Positions 1,625 to 56,058 of a stretch of DNA of 64,000 bases are shown here, piece by piece; positions within the stretch are counted from its first letter, which is position 1, and every line of letters begins with the position of its first letter. The stretch is from Pseudomonadota bacterium (GTDB lineage: Bacteria > Pseudomonadota > Gammaproteobacteria > Xanthomonadales > Xanthomonadaceae): assembly GCA_018241125.1 (NCBI GenBank), contig JAFEEL010000009.1, positions 124,001-188,000 on the forward strand, read 5' to 3'. Position numbers and translations under genes: made by a program. The notes below the pieces were generated by a model that was not told the origin of the DNA, ran no database searches, and worked only from the letters and a program-made list of their open reading frames with translations.

Positions 1625-1900
1625 TCATCCGAGGATTGAGTCCACCACATCCCCAGTGCCGAACCAGTCAGCCGCAAGATCGTCCCACGCAGGGTTGCCC
1701 GTGGCAATCAAGGCAATCTTCTTTGCGCGACGCCAGCCCTTGATTTGCTTTTCCCGCGTGATCGCCGCCAGCACATCATCGGTGTGTTCAAGGTGAACCA
1801 GACGAGTGACCCGATACTTGCCGGTGAATCCCTGAGTCGCGTGTGACTTGTGCTCATGAATCCGTCGCCCAATGTTGCCGGTGACACCCACGTAGAGCAC
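1625..1900 (-). CDS. GIY-YIG nuclease family protein, start uncertain
   Basis: This encodes a small URI-type GIY-YIG nuclease domain: LYVGVTGNIGRRIHEHK, then GFTGKYRVTRLVHLE and ITREKQIKGWRR, the usual order of conserved blocks. The first GIY strand lies upstream of the GTG at 1900: in-frame codons back to about 1936 read EYYVYILASRSGVLYVGV, but no ATG, GTG or TTG precedes them closely. The gene may use an unusual start or may have lost its start. A second GIY-YIG gene lies at 5885-6178. Repeats of another family begin about 120 bp upstream. Confidence 0.65.
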   Translation of the reverse strand: MLYVGVTGNIGRRIHEHKSHATQGFTGKYRVTRLVHLEHTDDVLAAITREKQIKGWRRAKKIALIATGNPAWDDLAADWFGTGDVVDSILG

Positions 1901-1936
1901 GCCAGAACGACTGGCGAGGATGTAGACGTAATATTC

Positions 1937-2271
1937 TCGAGACGTGCTCGGACCGTAGCGCGTGCAGCGCGGCCGTGGCTGTCGGCGCGGGCCGCGGCAT
2001 CGCGTAGGAAACGCCTGATACGTCGGATGTGGTGCGGATGCCGTTCATTTCCGGATGCAGCAGATCCCTCGCTGCGCTCGGGATGACACTTCGAGAAATT
2101 CGACCGGATCGTGTTGTCATCCCAAGCGCAGCGATGGATCTGCTTCCTGCTTTCACGACCAGCGTCGAGTGGGAGCACTCCATTGAGTGGGGGCGCCCCA
2201 TCCTGTCATCCCGAGCGGAGCGAGGGATCTGCTTCCGATGTTGGCAGCGGGAACAGGGCGGCAGTCGACCG
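1937..2271. other. Gene-poor interval between the GIY-YIG ORF and the DUF2461 gene
   Basis: I see no credible gene in this stretch of about 335 bp. It is dominated by three copies of a roughly 30-bp intergenic repeat, listed separately. ORFs crossing it carry the peptide HPERSEGS, which is translated repeat and not protein homology. Confidence 0.6.
2057..2236. repeat. Three copies of a 30-bp intergenic repeat (GTCATCCCGAGCG... type)
   Basis: Copies lie at 2057-2086 (reverse orientation), 2116-2146 and 2205-2236 (forward). The core reads GTCATCCCGAGCGNAGCGAG followed by GGATCTGCT. The first two copies face each other across about 30 bp, so this stretch could form a long hairpin. Copy 2 differs at a few positions (CCCAAGC, GCGATGG), as expected for drifting non-coding repeats. 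Confidence 0.8.
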
Positions 2272-4469: not shown

Positions 4470-5840
4470 TCATGCGTCCAGCGGGGGCAGCCGCGCGCGC
4501 ACCAGCGCATCGGTCGCATCCAGATTCACTTCTTCGACGCGTGCGCAGCCGCGCGTGGCTTCGATCAACAGCTCGCGTTGCACGCGCCCGCGTTCCAAGG
4601 CGGTGGCGTAGGGCACGCGGCGGAATGTCACCATCGCGTAACGCGGTACGAAGCGTTCGGGATGGCGCTGCGCCAGCAGGCGTTCGAGGTCGCGTTGCAG
4701 CAAGTAATCGGCATCGTCGACGCGGTCGCGCATCTCCAGATAATTTTCCAGCGCCATCTGCTGGATCGCCCGCGCGTTGGGCAGGCGCTGCGCCTGAAAT
4801 GCGGCGAACGCAGTCGCGAAATCGGTGGCATCGGCGATGTGCCGTGCCAGCGCCACGCAGTCCTCGAATGCGCAGTTCATGCCCTGCCCGTGGAAGGGCA
4901 CCATGGCGTGCGCGGCATCGCCCAGCAGCACCGCGCGGCCATCCAGATGCCAACGATCCAGATACAACGTTGCAAGTTGCCCGATGGGGTGCGCCGACCA
5001 ATCGGCATCGAACTGCGGAATCTGCGCCAGCGCGTCGGGGAAGTCGTGCGCGAACAGCGCCCGTGCTGCGGCCAAGTCGGGCAGGGCGTCGAATCCGGGT
5101 GCGCCATCGGCCGCGTGTTGCGGCAGGAACAAGGTGACGGTGAACGTGCGCTCGGTGTTGGGAAGGGCAATACACATGTAGCGCCCACGCGGCCAGATGT
5201 GCAGCGCGTTGGCTTCGATGCGGAACCCACCATCGGCCGCCGGCGGGATTTCCAGTTCCTTGTAGCCGTGGCCGAGCGATTCGAACCGCTCGCCCAGTGG
5301 CGTGATCGCGCCCATCGCGCCACGCAACGCGGAACCGGCACCGTCGGCGCCGATCAGCACGTTGAAGGCGTGTGTGTTCACGCTGCCATCGCGGTCGTCA
5401 ATAAAGCGGGCCTTCTTCGCGGTGAAATCCACGCCGTCCAGCCGTGCATGGAAGTGCAGCTTCGCGCCGGCCGCTTCGGCGGCATCGAGCAGCAACAGAT
5501 TCAGACGCCCGCGGTGCACCGACCAGATCACCTCGCTGTCGTCCTTGCCGTAGCGTTGCAAGGCGGTGTGGCCGTCGGCGAAATGCACCATGCGCCCGCG
5601 CATCATCACCGCTTGCGCCAGCACGGCCTCATGCAAACCGGCTTGCCGCAGCGCGTGCAGGCCACGCTCGGCCAGCGCGAGGTTGATCGAGCGCCCACCT
5701 TCGTAGCCGACCTGACGCGGATCGGCACGCTTCTCGAACACCTCCACGCGCCATCCCGCGCGCGCCAGCAGCGCCGCAAGCAGCGCGCCGGCGAGGCCGG
5801 CGCCGGCGATGGTGAGGGTAGTGTCGTGCCGTGGTTTCAA
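4470..5840 (-). CDS. kmo: Kynurenine 3-monooxygenase (FAD)
   Basis: Hydroxylates L-kynurenine to 3-hydroxykynurenine using NADPH and FAD. The Rossmann motif GAGLAG is at residues 13-18. GYEGGRSINLALAERGLHALR is a hallmark of KMO, and the second FAD motif reads LLGDAAHAMVPFHGQGMNCAFED. At 456 residues the length is typical. kynU and the ACMSD gene follow upstream on the same strand, which makes a kynurenine-degradation operon, now interrupted by the GIY-YIG element at 5852-6215. Confidence 0.95.
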   Translation of the reverse strand: MKPRHDTTLTIAGAGLAGALLAALLARAGWRVEVFEKRADPRQVGYEGGRSINLALAERGLHALRQAGLHEAVLAQAVMMRGRMVHFADGHTALQRYGKDDSEVIWSVHRGRLNLLLLDAAEAAGAKLHFHARLDGVDFTAKKARFIDDRDGSVNTHAFNVLIGADGAGSALRGAMGAITPLGERFESLGHGYKELEIPPAADGGFRIEANALHIWPRGRYMCIALPNTERTFTVTLFLPQHAADGAPGFDALPDLAAARALFAHDFPDALAQIPQFDADWSAHPIGQLATLYLDRWHLDGRAVLLGDAAHAMVPFHGQGMNCAFEDCVALARHIADATDFATAFAAFQAQRLPNARAIQQMALENYLEMRDRVDDADYLLQRDLERLLAQRHPERFVPRYAMVTFRRVPYATALERGRVQRELLIEATRGCARVEEVNLDATDALVRARLPPLDA

Positions 5841-5851
5841 GGCAATGGCTC

Positions 5852-6215
5852 GTCATTCCTGCGTAAGCAGGAATCCAGTGTCTGTCAGGCGATGATGCGT
5901 TCCCACAAATCGTTCCAATACGGATTCAGGGCTTCGACAAGTTCCTTCTTCCACTGTCTTTTCCATGCCTTGATTTGCTTCTCTCGAACGATGGCGGACT
6001 CCATGTTCTCGTGTTGCTCGTACCAAACGAGTCGGGTCACGCCGTACTTGTCGCTGAAGCCTTCTGTTTGATGCTCTCTATGCTGCCATATCCTCTGCAC
6101 GAGATTGCTTGTGACACCGACGTATAACGTGCCATTCCGTGCAGTTGCGAGTATGTACACATAAGGGTTCTTGTTCATGGGAAAGGCGCTGGATTCCTGC
6201 TTTCGCAGGAATGAC
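5852..6215. mobile_element. 364-bp GIY-YIG cassette bounded by 27-bp inverted palindromic repeats
   Basis: The left end 5852-5878 and the right end 6189-6215 are inverted copies of the same 27-bp sequence with one mismatch. Each copy is itself a palindrome with the core ATTCCTGCGAAAGCAGGAAT, resembling the dRS3-type repeats (ATTCC-N-GGAAT) described in Neisseria. The ORF between them fills the interval: its stop ends 7 bp from the left repeat and its ATG starts 11 bp from the right one. I found no clear target duplication. That it moves as a unit is an inference. Confidence 0.6.
5885..6178 (-). CDS. GIY-YIG nuclease family protein
   Basis: This 97-residue protein is almost all GIY-YIG domain: PYVYILATARNGTLYVGVTS supplies the GIY and YIG strands, then R29, GFSDKYGVTRLVWYE, and REKQIKAWKRQWK with the conserved basic helix. 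Such single-domain proteins resemble the UvrC N-terminal nuclease and homing endonucleases. The ATG at 6178 is the only plausible start, since upstream in-frame sequence (SFLRKQESS) is the translated repeat. The gene sits inside the kyn operon and is unrelated to that pathway. Confidence 0.85.
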   Translation of the reverse strand: MNKNPYVYILATARNGTLYVGVTSNLVQRIWQHREHQTEGFSDKYGVTRLVWYEQHENMESAIVREKQIKAWKRQWKKELVEALNPYWNDLWERIIA

Positions 6216-6228
6216 GGTACCGAAGAAC

Positions 6229-7536
6229 CTAATGTGCCGCATCCCGCCACCCGACGATCGCATCCACCAACTTCCACGCGTCCACGAAGCGGTTGTACAG
6301 CGGCGTGGGCGCGACGCGGATCACGTCCGGCTCGCGCCAGTCGCCGATGATGCCGCGCGCGTTCAGATGCTCGAACAGAGCGCGGCCGCGCGTGCGGCCA
6401 CCGATCACGCGCAGGCTGAGCTGGCAACCACGACGCTCGCGTTCCGGAGGCGTGACGATGTCGATGACACCCTGCAAGCGTACGCGGATCAGTGCTTCCA
6501 GATAGGCGGTCAACTCGATGGATTTCTCGCGCAGCCGGCCCATGCCGGCGCGATGGAACACGTCGAGCGACGCGCGCAACGGCGCCAGCGCCATGATCGG
6601 CGGATTGCTCAGTTGCCAGCCATCGGCACCGGGTGTCGGCGCGAACGTCGGGCCCATCTGGAAGCGGCTGGACTGGTCGTGGCCCCACCAGCCGGCGAAG
6701 CGCGGCAGTGGCGCGCGTGCATGGCGTTCGTGCACGAAACAGCCGGCGATCGCGCCGGGGCCCGCGTTGAGGTACTTGTAACTGCACCACGCGGCGAAAT
6801 CGGCGTCGGCGTCGTGCAACGCCAGTTGCAGATTGCCGGCAGCGTGCGCGAGGTCGAAGCCGACGGCGGCACCGTGCGCGTGCGCGAGGCGGGCGATGTG
6901 TTTCAGGTCGAACGCCTCTCCGGTGCGGTACTGCACGCCGGGCCACAGCACCAGCGCGGTGCGCGAGCCATGTTCGTGCAAGGCGCGTTCGATGCGCTCA
7001 AAGCCGATCAGGCCGGTGTCGGGATCGCCTTCGACTTCGATCAGCGCAGTCGCCGGATCGAATCCGTGAAAACGAATTTGCGATTCCACCGCGTAGCGAT
7101 CGGAGGGAAAACTACCGGCTTCGATGACGATGGCATGGCGTTCGGTCGTGGGCCGGTAGAAGCTCACCATCATCAGGTGCAGGTTGGTGGTCAGCGAGTT
7201 CATCGCCACCACTTCCGACGGCAACGCACCGGTGATTTCCGCCAGATGGCCGCGTACTTCCTCGTGATACGGCATCCACGGATGGCGGCCGTGGAAATGC
7301 GCTTCCACGCCCAGTCGCGCCCAATCGTCCAGTTCGGTGAGCAAGGCCTCGCGCACACCGCGCGGTTGCAGGCCCAGCGAGTTGCCGGTGAAGTAGAGCT
7401 GGTGATCTTCGCCCAGCGTCGGGTCGGTCGCCGGCGGAATCAGGAACTCGTCACGGAAATCGCGCAGCGGATCGGCGGCATCGCGGGTGCGGGCGTCGGC
7501 TTCGGAAGCCGCGAGGGTGAAGTGGGGGATGGTCAT
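6229..7536 (-). CDS. kynU: Kynureninase (PLP)
   Basis: Cleaves kynurenine or 3-hydroxykynurenine to (3-hydroxy)anthranilate and alanine. The blocks YFTGNSLGLQPRGVR, MNSLTTNLHLMMVSFY, GFDLAHAAGNL and WCSYKYLNAGPGAIAG, which holds the PLP Schiff-base Lys, define the family. Length 435 is normal. I chose the ATG at 7536 (MTIPHFTLAASEA) because it overlaps the ACMSD stop by 4 bp in an ATGA arrangement, which implies translational coupling. Confidence 0.95.
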   Translation of the reverse strand: MTIPHFTLAASEADARTRDAADPLRDFRDEFLIPPATDPTLGEDHQLYFTGNSLGLQPRGVREALLTELDDWARLGVEAHFHGRHPWMPYHEEVRGHLAEITGALPSEVVAMNSLTTNLHLMMVSFYRPTTERHAIVIEAGSFPSDRYAVESQIRFHGFDPATALIEVEGDPDTGLIGFERIERALHEHGSRTALVLWPGVQYRTGEAFDLKHIARLAHAHGAAVGFDLAHAAGNLQLALHDADADFAAWCSYKYLNAGPGAIAGCFVHERHARAPLPRFAGWWGHDQSSRFQMGPTFAPTPGADGWQLSNPPIMALAPLRASLDVFHRAGMGRLREKSIELTAYLEALIRVRLQGVIDIVTPPERERRGCQLSLRVIGGRTRGRALFEHLNARGIIGDWREPDVIRVAPTPLYNRFVDAWKLVDAIVGWRDAAH

Positions 7537-8552
7537 GGGCTGTTCCCGAATCGCGAAGCTGCCAGCCCCAGCCATTCCAGCGCGGTGCCGTGGTACAGCC
7601 GCGCTTGTCCCTTCGCATCCAGATCGAGTCCGTCGATGTAGCTGCCCGGCTCTTGTTCGCCCAGCGGGAAGGGGTAGTCGGTGCCCATCATCACCCGATC
7701 AATGCCGACGGTGTCGATCAGGTAGCGCAAGGCGCGGTCGTCGGCCACCCATGAATCGAAATACATGCGCGGCAAGTATTCGCGCGGATTGCGCGGGTTG
7801 TCGGTAGCGACCAGATCCGGGCGCATCTTGAAGCCGTGCTCGATGCGGCCGATGGTGTAGGGGAACGCGCCGCCGCCGTGCGCGAAGCAGACCTTGAGCT
7901 TGGGCAGGCGTTCGAGCACGCCGCCGAAGATCAGGCAGCAGGCCGCGCGTGCCTGCTCGGCGGGCATGCCGACCAGCCACGGCAGCCAGTATTTGGGCAT
8001 CGACTCCTTGCCCATCATGTCCCACGGATGCACGAGGATCGCCGCGCCCAGTTCGCTGGCGGCGCGGAAGAACTCGAACAGCTCGGGCGCGTCGAGATTC
8101 CAGTCGTTGACGTGGCTGCCGATCTGTACGCCTTGCAGGTCGAGCTGATCCATGCAGCGCTCGAGTTCCTGGATCGCCAGCCGCGGCGATTGCAGCGGTA
8201 CCGTGCCGATGCCGGCGTAGTGGCGCGGATGCGCGCGGCAAATCGTTGCGGTGTGATCGTTGAGCGATTGGTGCAGTTCCAGCGCATGGTGCGGCTTGGC
8301 CCAGTAACTGAACATCACCGGCACCGTGGAAATCACCTGCACCTGCACGCCGAAACGCGCGTAGTCGGCGATGCGCTCGTCGGCGTCCCAGGTCTTGGGG
8401 AAGATCTCGCGGAAGAACTTGCCGTCCTTGTAGATGCGGTGGCGGCCGTCGGCAGTGTGGTGGATCACCGGAAAGCGGGCGTCGCCGTACTTGGCGGACA
8501 AGTCCGGCCAGTCGCGCGGAAGGATGTGGGCGTGGACGTCGATCTTGAGCAT
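7533..8552 (-). CDS. 2-amino-3-carboxymuconate-6-semialdehyde decarboxylase (ACMSD), amidohydrolase family
   Basis: Removes CO2 from the ring-opened product of 3-hydroxyanthranilate, diverting flux away from quinolinate/NAD. The metal motif HAH is at residues 7-9, with further ligands in LVHPWDM, FAHGGGAFP and MMGTDYPFPLGE, all matching ACMSD. Length 339 is typical. It heads the operon ACMSD-kynU-(GIY-YIG)-kmo. The 3-hydroxyanthranilate dioxygenase that must act before it is not in this window. Confidence 0.9.
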   Translation of the reverse strand: MLKIDVHAHILPRDWPDLSAKYGDARFPVIHHTADGRHRIYKDGKFFREIFPKTWDADERIADYARFGVQVQVISTVPVMFSYWAKPHHALELHQSLNDHTATICRAHPRHYAGIGTVPLQSPRLAIQELERCMDQLDLQGVQIGSHVNDWNLDAPELFEFFRAASELGAAILVHPWDMMGKESMPKYWLPWLVGMPAEQARAACCLIFGGVLERLPKLKVCFAHGGGAFPYTIGRIEHGFKMRPDLVATDNPRNPREYLPRMYFDSWVADDRALRYLIDTVGIDRVMMGTDYPFPLGEQEPGSYIDGLDLDAKGQARLYHGTALEWLGLAASRFGNSP

Positions 8553-21686: not shown

Positions 21687-21752
21687 TGGTTCGATCGCGG
21701 CCTCGACCCGGGATAAAGCCCCGGGTCTCGATCCGCGCCTCACCACGAACGG
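21687..21752 (+). repeat. Variant copy of the 55-bp hairpin repeat with an extended inner stem
   Basis: It begins TGGTTCGATCGCGGCCTCGA and ends CACCACGAACGG, as in the array at 42141-42360. The inner arm differs: GACCCGGG pairs perfectly with CCCGGGTC across an ATAAAGC loop. The outer CGCGG/CCGCG pair is kept. Confidence 0.75.
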
Positions 21753-21913
21753 GGTGTGTGATATGGCGATCGCGGCTGGCTTCCAACAGCCGGAGCCTGG
21801 TCAAGCCGCTCCCACAGAAGCATCCGCGCCTGAGCGCGAACGGGGTGTGTGATATGGCGATCGCGGCTGGCTTCCAACAGCCGGAGCCTGATCAAGCCGC
21901 TCCCACAGAAGCA
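21747..21913 (+). repeat. Tandem duplication, 91-bp period
   Basis: The 76-bp segment at 21747-21822 recurs at 21838-21913 with a single mismatch (CTGGTCAAG against CTGATCAAG). Each contains GGCTGGCTTCCAACAGCCGG, itself a small hairpin. This is a recent local duplication of an intergenic repeat. Confidence 0.85.
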
Positions 21914-22206
21914 GCTCTTGCAAAAACAGTTCCCACAGCAGCGGGTCGCTCGAATAGCTTGCTCTTGTGGGAGGGCCTTCCAGGCCCGATACCTTCCCTT
22001 GTCGTGGCTGGCTTCCAGCAGCCGCAGGCTGGTCCAGCCGATGTCATGGAAGTATTCGCGCATCACCACGAACAGGATTTCCCGATTCGCGCGAACCCCA
22101 AGAAGCCGCATGTGAGGATTGGACGCCGTCACGACTTCGCACCTCGGATCTTTTCTCCACAATCCCGGCTTGCGCTGGGATGACGCGATCAAGCGTCACC
22201 AACAAC

Positions 22207-22260
22207 CCGTTCGTGGTGAGGCGCGGATCGAGGGCGTAGCCCGAGGCCGCGATCGAACCA
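22207..22260 (-). repeat. Inverted copy of the 55-bp hairpin repeat
   Basis: Read on the minus strand it matches the unit at 42136-42190 almost base for base. The visible difference is GGGCTACGCCC where the array has GGGCTGCGCCC, a change in the hairpin loop only. Confidence 0.8.
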
Positions 22261-55928: not shown

Positions 55929-55943
55929 ACAACAGTAATTTTT

Positions 55944-56048
55944 CCTTCCCCCGCCAGCGGGGGAAGGTGCCGAAGGCGGATGGGGGTATTGCGTTCATGG
56001 GTGCATGCCACGCCCCCATCCCGACCTTCCCCCGCCAGCGGGGGAAGG
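55944..56048. repeat. Paired palindromic repeat between pyrG and kdsA, carrying the kdsA ribosome site
   Basis: Identical 24-bp palindromes (CCTTCCCCCGCCAGCGGGGG plus AAGG) lie at 55944-55967 and 56025-56048, joined by complementary GGATGGGGG and CCCCCATCC arms, so the whole 105 bp can fold into one structure. The second copy ends in AAGG of AAGGAG, the Shine-Dalgarno for kdsA at 56059. Confidence 0.85.
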
Positions 56049-56058
56049 AGAAAGGCCG

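Follow-up and report, generated by a model that had tools for sequence, protein, structure and literature searches.

Ssn of Neisseria, reportedly described in a 2025 Nature Communications paper, is said to be a site-specific single-strand nuclease acting on NTS repeats and to modulate transformation or recombination in that genus. The repeats of the CGTC-1 REP family, which includes the dRS3 repeats of Neisseria, are characterized by a CGTC tag, an 8-bp stem starting with AT, a 4-nt loop and a CCA tail, and the part of the 2013 description available to us presents CGTC repeats as apparently without a dedicated transposase and as not associated with transposase genes (Di Nocera 2013, PMC3733652). 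Among the papers listed by a literature search, none was found to tie GIY-YIG proteins to CGTC repeats, and the accessible part of PMC12707154 held nothing relevant to a link between nuclease and repeat. Here, a small GIY-YIG gene enclosed by two inverted CGTC-type repeats was analysed in the window, i.e. the whole 64,000-nucleotide stretch of DNA under study, and compared with its relatives in other genomes.

A GIY-YIG gene enclosed by CGTC repeats at kynU-kmo

The features of the locus are as follows.

4470..5840, minus strand: kmo, a kynurenine monooxygenase-like FAD protein (name probable, from operon context), downstream neighbour; TTG start; Pfam FAD_binding_3
5851..6216, minus strand: whole cassette, 366 bp including the outer CGTC tags at both ends
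5852..5878, plus strand: kmo-side CGTC-type palindrome, GTC tag outward and CCAG tail facing the gene
5885..6178, minus strand: GIY-YIG nuclease gene, 97 aa, single domain, 49.7% GC; Pfam PF01541, E 8.8e-16
6189..6215, minus strand: kynU-side CGTC-type palindrome, inverted copy, 26/27 identical
6229..7575, minus strand: kynU (kynureninase), upstream neighbour; Pfam KYNU_C and Aminotran_5

Along the minus strand, kynU (7575-6229) is followed by a 27-bp palindrome, the GIY-YIG gene (6178-5885), the inverted palindrome copy and kmo (5840-4470), with spacings of 13 bp from the kynU stop to the repeat, 10 bp from there to the gene, 6 bp from the gene to the second repeat and 11 bp to the kmo start. 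The sequence-only reading had proposed a 97-codon GIY-YIG gene that lies between inverted 27-bp palindromes (26/27 positions matching) and splits kmo from kynU; coordinates, Pfam and arm comparison all agree with this, and its term 'minimal cassette' is a fair description. In each repeat, the CGTC tag faces outward, the first two positions of the 8-bp stem are AT, the loop has 4 nt and the tail reads CCAG. The sole mismatch between the arms falls in the loop, and their likeness runs slightly past 27 bp (36 nt at 89%). On its own, each palindrome folds as a hairpin with 8 bp in the stem and 4 nt in the loop, and when the whole cassette is folded as a single strand the two arms pair together (z −4.7). 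No match to the 20-mer core arose in dinucleotide-preserving shuffles, versus three reported matches at two places in the real sequence. The exact stem variant (TCCTGCG, three bases, GCAGGA) was found at two places only in its own genome, both at the cassette, and looser CGTC-type copies amount to 16 by pattern, dispersed and with the cassette's two included.

The GIY-YIG domain (PF01541) spans residues 5-77 of the 97-aa protein, and Y8, G21, R29, H33, E66 and N85, which we take to be the catalytic-type residues of GIY-YIG, are kept in 94-99% of 143 aligned relatives. Searching NCBIfam with the protein yielded no family, and the single PDB sequence match at E ≤ 0.1 was UPF0213 / BH0048 (1zg2, E 1.3e-4). 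The gene looks foreign because its GC content of 49.7%, versus 66.2% for the window, lies below that of all 1275 sampled stretches of equal size, and by this composition the cassette probably arrived horizontally.

Close inverted pairs are rare in the window without being unique to the cassette, as 27-bp pairs less than 500 bp apart with no more than 3 mismatches occur at three further places. Inverted pairs of at least 27 bp are located at 21723-21760 with 22199-22236 and at 55939-55969 with 56023-56053, away from both GIY-YIG genes of the window, and one CGTC-type repeat occurs at 22158-22184. The second GIY-YIG gene (1625-1951, minus strand) is 53% identical to the first and has 57.5% GC; beside it, on one side only, lie three palindromes of another class (TGTCATCCCGAGCG..AGCGAGGGATCTGCTT) at 2059-2088, 2115-2147 and 2204-2236. 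Genes related to this second one in genomes G035 and G149 (L237, L238) have the same TGTCATCCCGAGCG..AGCGAGGGATCTGCTT class on both sides.

The nuclease family and its repeats across genomes

By combining 70 relatives from one genome scan with more from further searches and removing exact duplicates, 143 loci were obtained. At 91 of the 143 loci, an inverted pair scoring at least 17 was detected no more than about 220 bp from the GIY-YIG gene, versus 0/143 when one arm was shuffled and 24/143 when the arms were taken from different loci; control windows displaced by 900-1300 bp gave a pair in 1 of 321, versus 66 of 108 for the genes of the loci concerned. The other 52 loci had no detectable inverted pair by this test; five of them come from Legionella yabuuchiae, in whose contigs at least five related GIY-YIG loci lack a flanking pair that could be detected (L063, L064, L065, L069, L070).

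Co-variation was analysed in the 80 pairs that carry the outer GTC(A/G)(T/C) tag, the other 11 of the 91 being short or without this tag, and some of them clearly not CGTC-type. The outer stem 5-mer was the same in both arms of 68 of these 80 cassettes, versus 17 expected from random pairing, and protein distance correlated with repeat distance (Mantel rho 0.47; 0 of 1000 permutations as high). For 24 of 26 cassettes with paralogues in 11 genomes, the repeat was nearer to that of the closest foreign-genome protein than to the repeat of the paralogue in its own genome. Together, the Mantel correlation and the paralogue test indicate that the pairing goes with the protein rather than with the genome. 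The tree of 76 related GIY-YIG proteins was poorly resolved (97 columns). It is well supported that the gene family is statistically tied to CGTC repeats across many lineages, and that repeat type tracks protein type.

Gene and dispersed repeats also occur together. By calling the gene at E ≤ 1e-12 from similarity to one query, it was identified in 49 of 149 family genomes, in which the median dispersed-repeat count was 20, versus 0 in genomes without it (Mann-Whitney p 3e-19); at least one repeat was present in 48 of the 49 gene-bearing genomes versus 31 of the 100 gene-less ones. In all 12 genera with both states the mean repeat number was higher in the gene-bearing genomes (within-genus permutation p 5e-5). 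After two repeats per gene were removed, the gene-bearing median was 18 with 9 of 49 genomes at zero (p 2e-13). Exceptions are found on both sides, in that 9 of the 100 gene-less genomes hold at least 10 repeats and one gene-bearing genome holds none. A palindrome common everywhere but not enriched near the gene had been named as the picture that speaks against a tie; the CGTC-type pattern is indeed widespread (79/149 family genomes), yet it is strongly enriched at GIY-YIG genes, and the proposed search with and without the gene recovered the same repeats in some gene-less genomes as well.

Close CGTC neighbours prefer one arrangement, since in four congeners those within 400 bp comprise 17 outward inverted pairs ('+-', two gene cassettes included), 8 same-direction pairs and no '-+' pair. 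Six dispersed elements of congener G002 (L175-L180) have terminal repeats (CTAGGGAAGGTCTGAA and variants) and enclose a central CGTC doublet, 54-55 bp from start to start; they resemble MITEs that an unrelated transposase has mobilised. Two contigs of G000, C12 and C65, carry tandem arrays with 76-bp and 88-bp spacing and one CGTC repeat per unit (L191, L192).

Beyond the family, 36 records of the plasmid collection matched, some of them whole chromosomes judging by size. The first-ranked was a 2.17-Mb, chromosome-sized Neisseria gonorrhoeae record encoding a 65% identical protein, the gene of which lies among dRS3-type repeats. One of these repeats follows the gene within a few bp, the upstream arm found is about 300 bp off, and this record contains 61 copies of the repeat pattern. 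The N. gonorrhoeae gene is probably the published ssn, and by sequence the window nuclease would belong with the GIY-YIG nucleases of CGTC/NTS repeats, the kind reportedly known as Ssn/NTS. An inverted pair within 350 bp was present in six of seven examined plasmid-collection matches, the Photobacterium one being without it; the pair of the Rhizobium match is long, and CGTC type is not established for it. Close pairs, with a different stem in each species, are present in Azospirillum lipoferum, Sinorhizobium meliloti and Novosphingobium aromaticivorans, and CGTC repeats are listed for all three in the available part of PMC3733652. The Lysobacterales repeat pattern had 7 copies in the A. lipoferum record and 0 in the S. 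meliloti and N. aromaticivorans records. The A. lipoferum cassette sits between sufB and sufC, a second case inside an operon. None of 50,697 phage records matched the GIY-YIG gene, which rules against a phage origin of the cassette.

Turnover at kynU-kmo and gene-less forms

A kmo match (E ≤ 1e-80) was present in 140 of the 149 family genomes, and 70 kynU-kmo junctions from these were read, a non-random set made of the 30 best kmo matches and 40 others mostly in score order; leaving out L110, which lacks a kynU match, gave 69, of which one with a gap of about 1 kb (L113) was covered by the GIY search only. A GIY-YIG gene was found at 11 of the 69 junctions (G000, G001, G002, G003, G011, G035, G089, G090, G116, G149 and G162), four of them broken, by frameshift or decay in G089, G090 and G149 and by a stop in G116. 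The G163 junction has an inverted pair without a gene, those of G072, G130 and G171 have one repeat each, and a symmetric palindrome occupies that of G019. The distribution of the gene over a quick kynU tree requires six changes, four of them forced by well supported branches. The empty-site comparison that had been suggested for kmo-kynU therefore finds both occupied and unoccupied alleles, and the opposite picture, in which every relative carries the gene here, holds halfway, with three of four congeners carrying one. In the fourth, G004, kynU and kmo overlap with no repeat at the junction, and neither the gene nor a pattern copy was found anywhere in its 71% complete genome.

The right junction is alike in G000-G003, and comparison of these with G004 gave no common target duplication. 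An ordinary target duplication at kynU-kmo was considered and none was found; in G003 alone (L107), some 50 bp from the 5′ coding end of kmo recur upstream of the cassette, in a version that has diverged from the functional kmo copy. The GIY proteins of G000-G003 form two pairs, 78-81% identical within and 59-63% between. The kynU of G003 is 92.4% identical to that of G001 versus 86.0% to that of G000, whereas its GIY protein is 78.4% identical to that of G000 versus 62.9% to that of G001; the sister species G116 and G162 share 97.7% identity in kynU versus 62.5% in GIY. These identities disfavour one old insertion followed by vertical descent, although AU tests, applied to the genus's four kynU-kmo genes and to the full nine in the tree, did not reject one clade (p 0.61 twice), and in both sets the constrained trees uniting these genes scored above the quick free tree. 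Replacement or repeated arrival would fit best, a view taken because of the protein identities, the trees not proving it.

Forms without the gene are found elsewhere as well. At gltA-lpxB, an intact cassette of S. meliloti Ak57 stands beside a copy with most of the gene deleted, and the same place in Sinorhizobium K101 has a single, slightly degenerate symmetric palindrome that consists of both outer repeat halves and is closely followed by a further degenerate repeat. The 149 genomes contain 161 outer-outer palindromes, spread over 51 of them, versus one inner-inner palindrome in one genome; the latter is an undercount, since the inner-inner pattern demands one more base at either side and its tail varies more. 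The lone inner-inner palindrome matched is L260 of G023, CTGGATCCCAGC..GCTGGGATCCAG. One genome, G167, holds 30 outer-outer palindromes (e.g. L261-L263), equal to its ordinary-repeat count, the next highest genome having 7. G162 and G116 each hold repeats in the hundreds. Five of the six symmetric sites in G162 were compared with G116, which has two clean doublets between the same flanks, two messier repeat clusters and one site without a repeat; of two matches from this comparison in G089, the one examined showed no repeat.

The symmetric forms fit outward doublets that may have collapsed through their cores, and decay would run from doublet to symmetric palindrome. Slippage is enough for such a collapse, and deletion between the repeats can account for a lost interior; nuclease-driven excision, or the reverse course of insertion into a palindrome, are possible alternatives. 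REPINs undergo the same kind of collapse to one palindrome, as described in the accessible part of Bertels and Rainey (PMC3116915).

Readings of the unit and known systems

The pairing, co-variation and co-occurrence of gene and repeat, the differing genes present or absent at one junction, and the gene-less and symmetric forms observed here lead us to favour, with a probability of roughly 0.75, a single-domain GIY-YIG nuclease of the Ssn kind that sits inside an outward inverted doublet of its own cognate CGTC repeat, the whole being one genetic unit that was horizontally acquired and is turning over. The CGTC repeats would fold into hairpins in single-stranded DNA, and the GIY-YIG protein would recognise and nick these hairpins. 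The gene and its two repeats would behave as a single unit, acquired horizontally and gained or replaced several times at kynU-kmo, and the unit would decay into a gene-less doublet and then into a single symmetric palindrome, the dispersed copies being the same repeat population without the gene. The nuclease activity may help the repeats to spread or persist.

A possible though not favoured account makes the protein a resident single-strand nuclease that controls incoming or single-stranded DNA and modulates transformation or recombination, with the repeats as its marks, spread by other means such as MITEs or recombination and then kept or used. The Neisseria homologue, 65% identical and lying among dRS3-type repeats, suits this account, as do the tracking of protein by repeat type and the conservation of the catalytic-type residues. 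It has to contend with genes that are patchy (49/149 family genomes) and often broken (4/11 at kynU-kmo) and with the foreign composition of the window gene, and for these reasons the genes look selfish rather than housekeeping.

Doubtful, in our judgement, is an autonomous mobile unit, in which the GIY-YIG nuclease would itself excise and insert repeat doublets with or without the gene, as is proposed for RAYTs and GTAG REPs. It draws on the predominance of outward pairs in the four congeners (17 versus 8 versus 0), the gene-less doublet at the G163 kynU-kmo junction, the differing GIY proteins at one junction in sister species, the greater number of repeats where the gene is present, and the cassette inside another operon, sufB-sufC of A. 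lipoferum. In the genomes compared, however, no transposition, no strain-level insertion and no consistent target duplication was seen; 6 of the 17 outward pairs lie in the MITE-like elements of G002, so another agent probably moved them; and the searches gave no phage match in 50,697 records and 36 plasmid records that include whole chromosomes. To our knowledge, GIY-YIG enzymes do not join strands, which counts against autonomous movement as well. To the sequence-only reading, nuclease and repeats had looked like an autonomous element. Its tie between the two is upheld by enrichment, arm agreement, co-variation and co-occurrence, and the cassette comes and goes at kynU-kmo, but self-driven RAYT-like movement is unproven. 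A broader and likewise tentative idea, to which we would not commit, is that GIY-YIG nucleases of this kind are enzymes dedicated to the spread of CGTC REPs and form with them a second REP system, which would nick single-stranded hairpins without an HUH transposase, with cassettes as its autonomous form, doublets as its dependent form and symmetric palindromes as scars.

Improbable is a homing-type element, whose nuclease would cut an empty symmetric palindrome and whose cassette would be copied into the loop, leaving the outer repeat halves as the split target. Gene-less alleles made of two outer halves, in Sinorhizobium K101 versus S. meliloti Ak57, in G019 and at the two clean G162/G116 sites, are what it predicts, and the excess of outer-outer palindromes (161 in 51/149 genomes, versus 1 in 1/149 for the undercounted inner-inner form) points the same way; yet slippage between two palindromic cores gives the same products, with the REPIN collapse as a precedent (PMC3116915, in its available part), the G004 junction is empty without any palindrome, and one of the five G162 sites has no repeat in G116. 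Chance capture of a foreign gene between two copies of a common intergenic repeat is hardly credible even for a repeat class found in 79/149 genomes, being disfavoured by both the shifted-window control (66/108 loci versus 1/321 windows) and arm agreement far above random pairing (68/80 versus 17).

Under the favoured reading of a nuclease inside its cognate repeats, the enzyme-substrate question becomes a concrete one, namely whether the nuclease creates, spreads, removes or merely uses CGTC repeats, and many natural enzyme-site pairs are on offer for a nuclease class said to be single-strand and site-specific. Like Ssn/NTS of Neisseria, the window system has a small single-domain GIY-YIG protein, and its 65% homologue lies there among dRS3-type repeats with many dispersed copies; unlike it, the window gene is tightly enclosed by one inverted pair within an operon, and its own genome has few dispersed repeats (16 by pattern, 2 for the exact stem variant). 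The window host also differs from Neisseria in having Lysobacter and Pseudoxanthomonas as its nearest named relatives. A distant sequence match to the window protein is UPF0213 / BH0048 (PDB 1zg2, E 1.3e-4).

The REP/RAYT system (REPtron) and REPINs resemble the cassette in palindrome pairs flanking a gene whose product co-varies with them, in gene-less doublets and in collapse to one long palindrome, as far as the available parts of the sources go (PMC3116915, PMC8266576). RAYT is an HUH tyrosine transposase acting on GTAG REPs, whereas the window protein is a GIY-YIG protein and the tag CGTC; Pfam found GIY-YIG only and no HUH/Y1 domain in the cassette, the tag of which is not GTAG. The RAYT comparison made from the letters alone is thus best kept as a functional analogy, with no homology implied, the GIY-YIG protein not being an HUH/Y1 transposase. 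With CGTC-1 REPs as presented in the available part of PMC3733652, the cassette shares the outer CGTC tag, the 8-bp AT-starting stem, the 4-nt loop, the CCA tail and the inverted dimers, and it differs from them in that its repeats bracket a GIY-YIG gene, while that text gives CGTC repeats no dedicated transposase. The GIY-YIG nuclease is thereby a candidate partner for the CGTC REPs, dRS3 included, that were reported in 2013 without an apparent dedicated transposase (PMC3733652).
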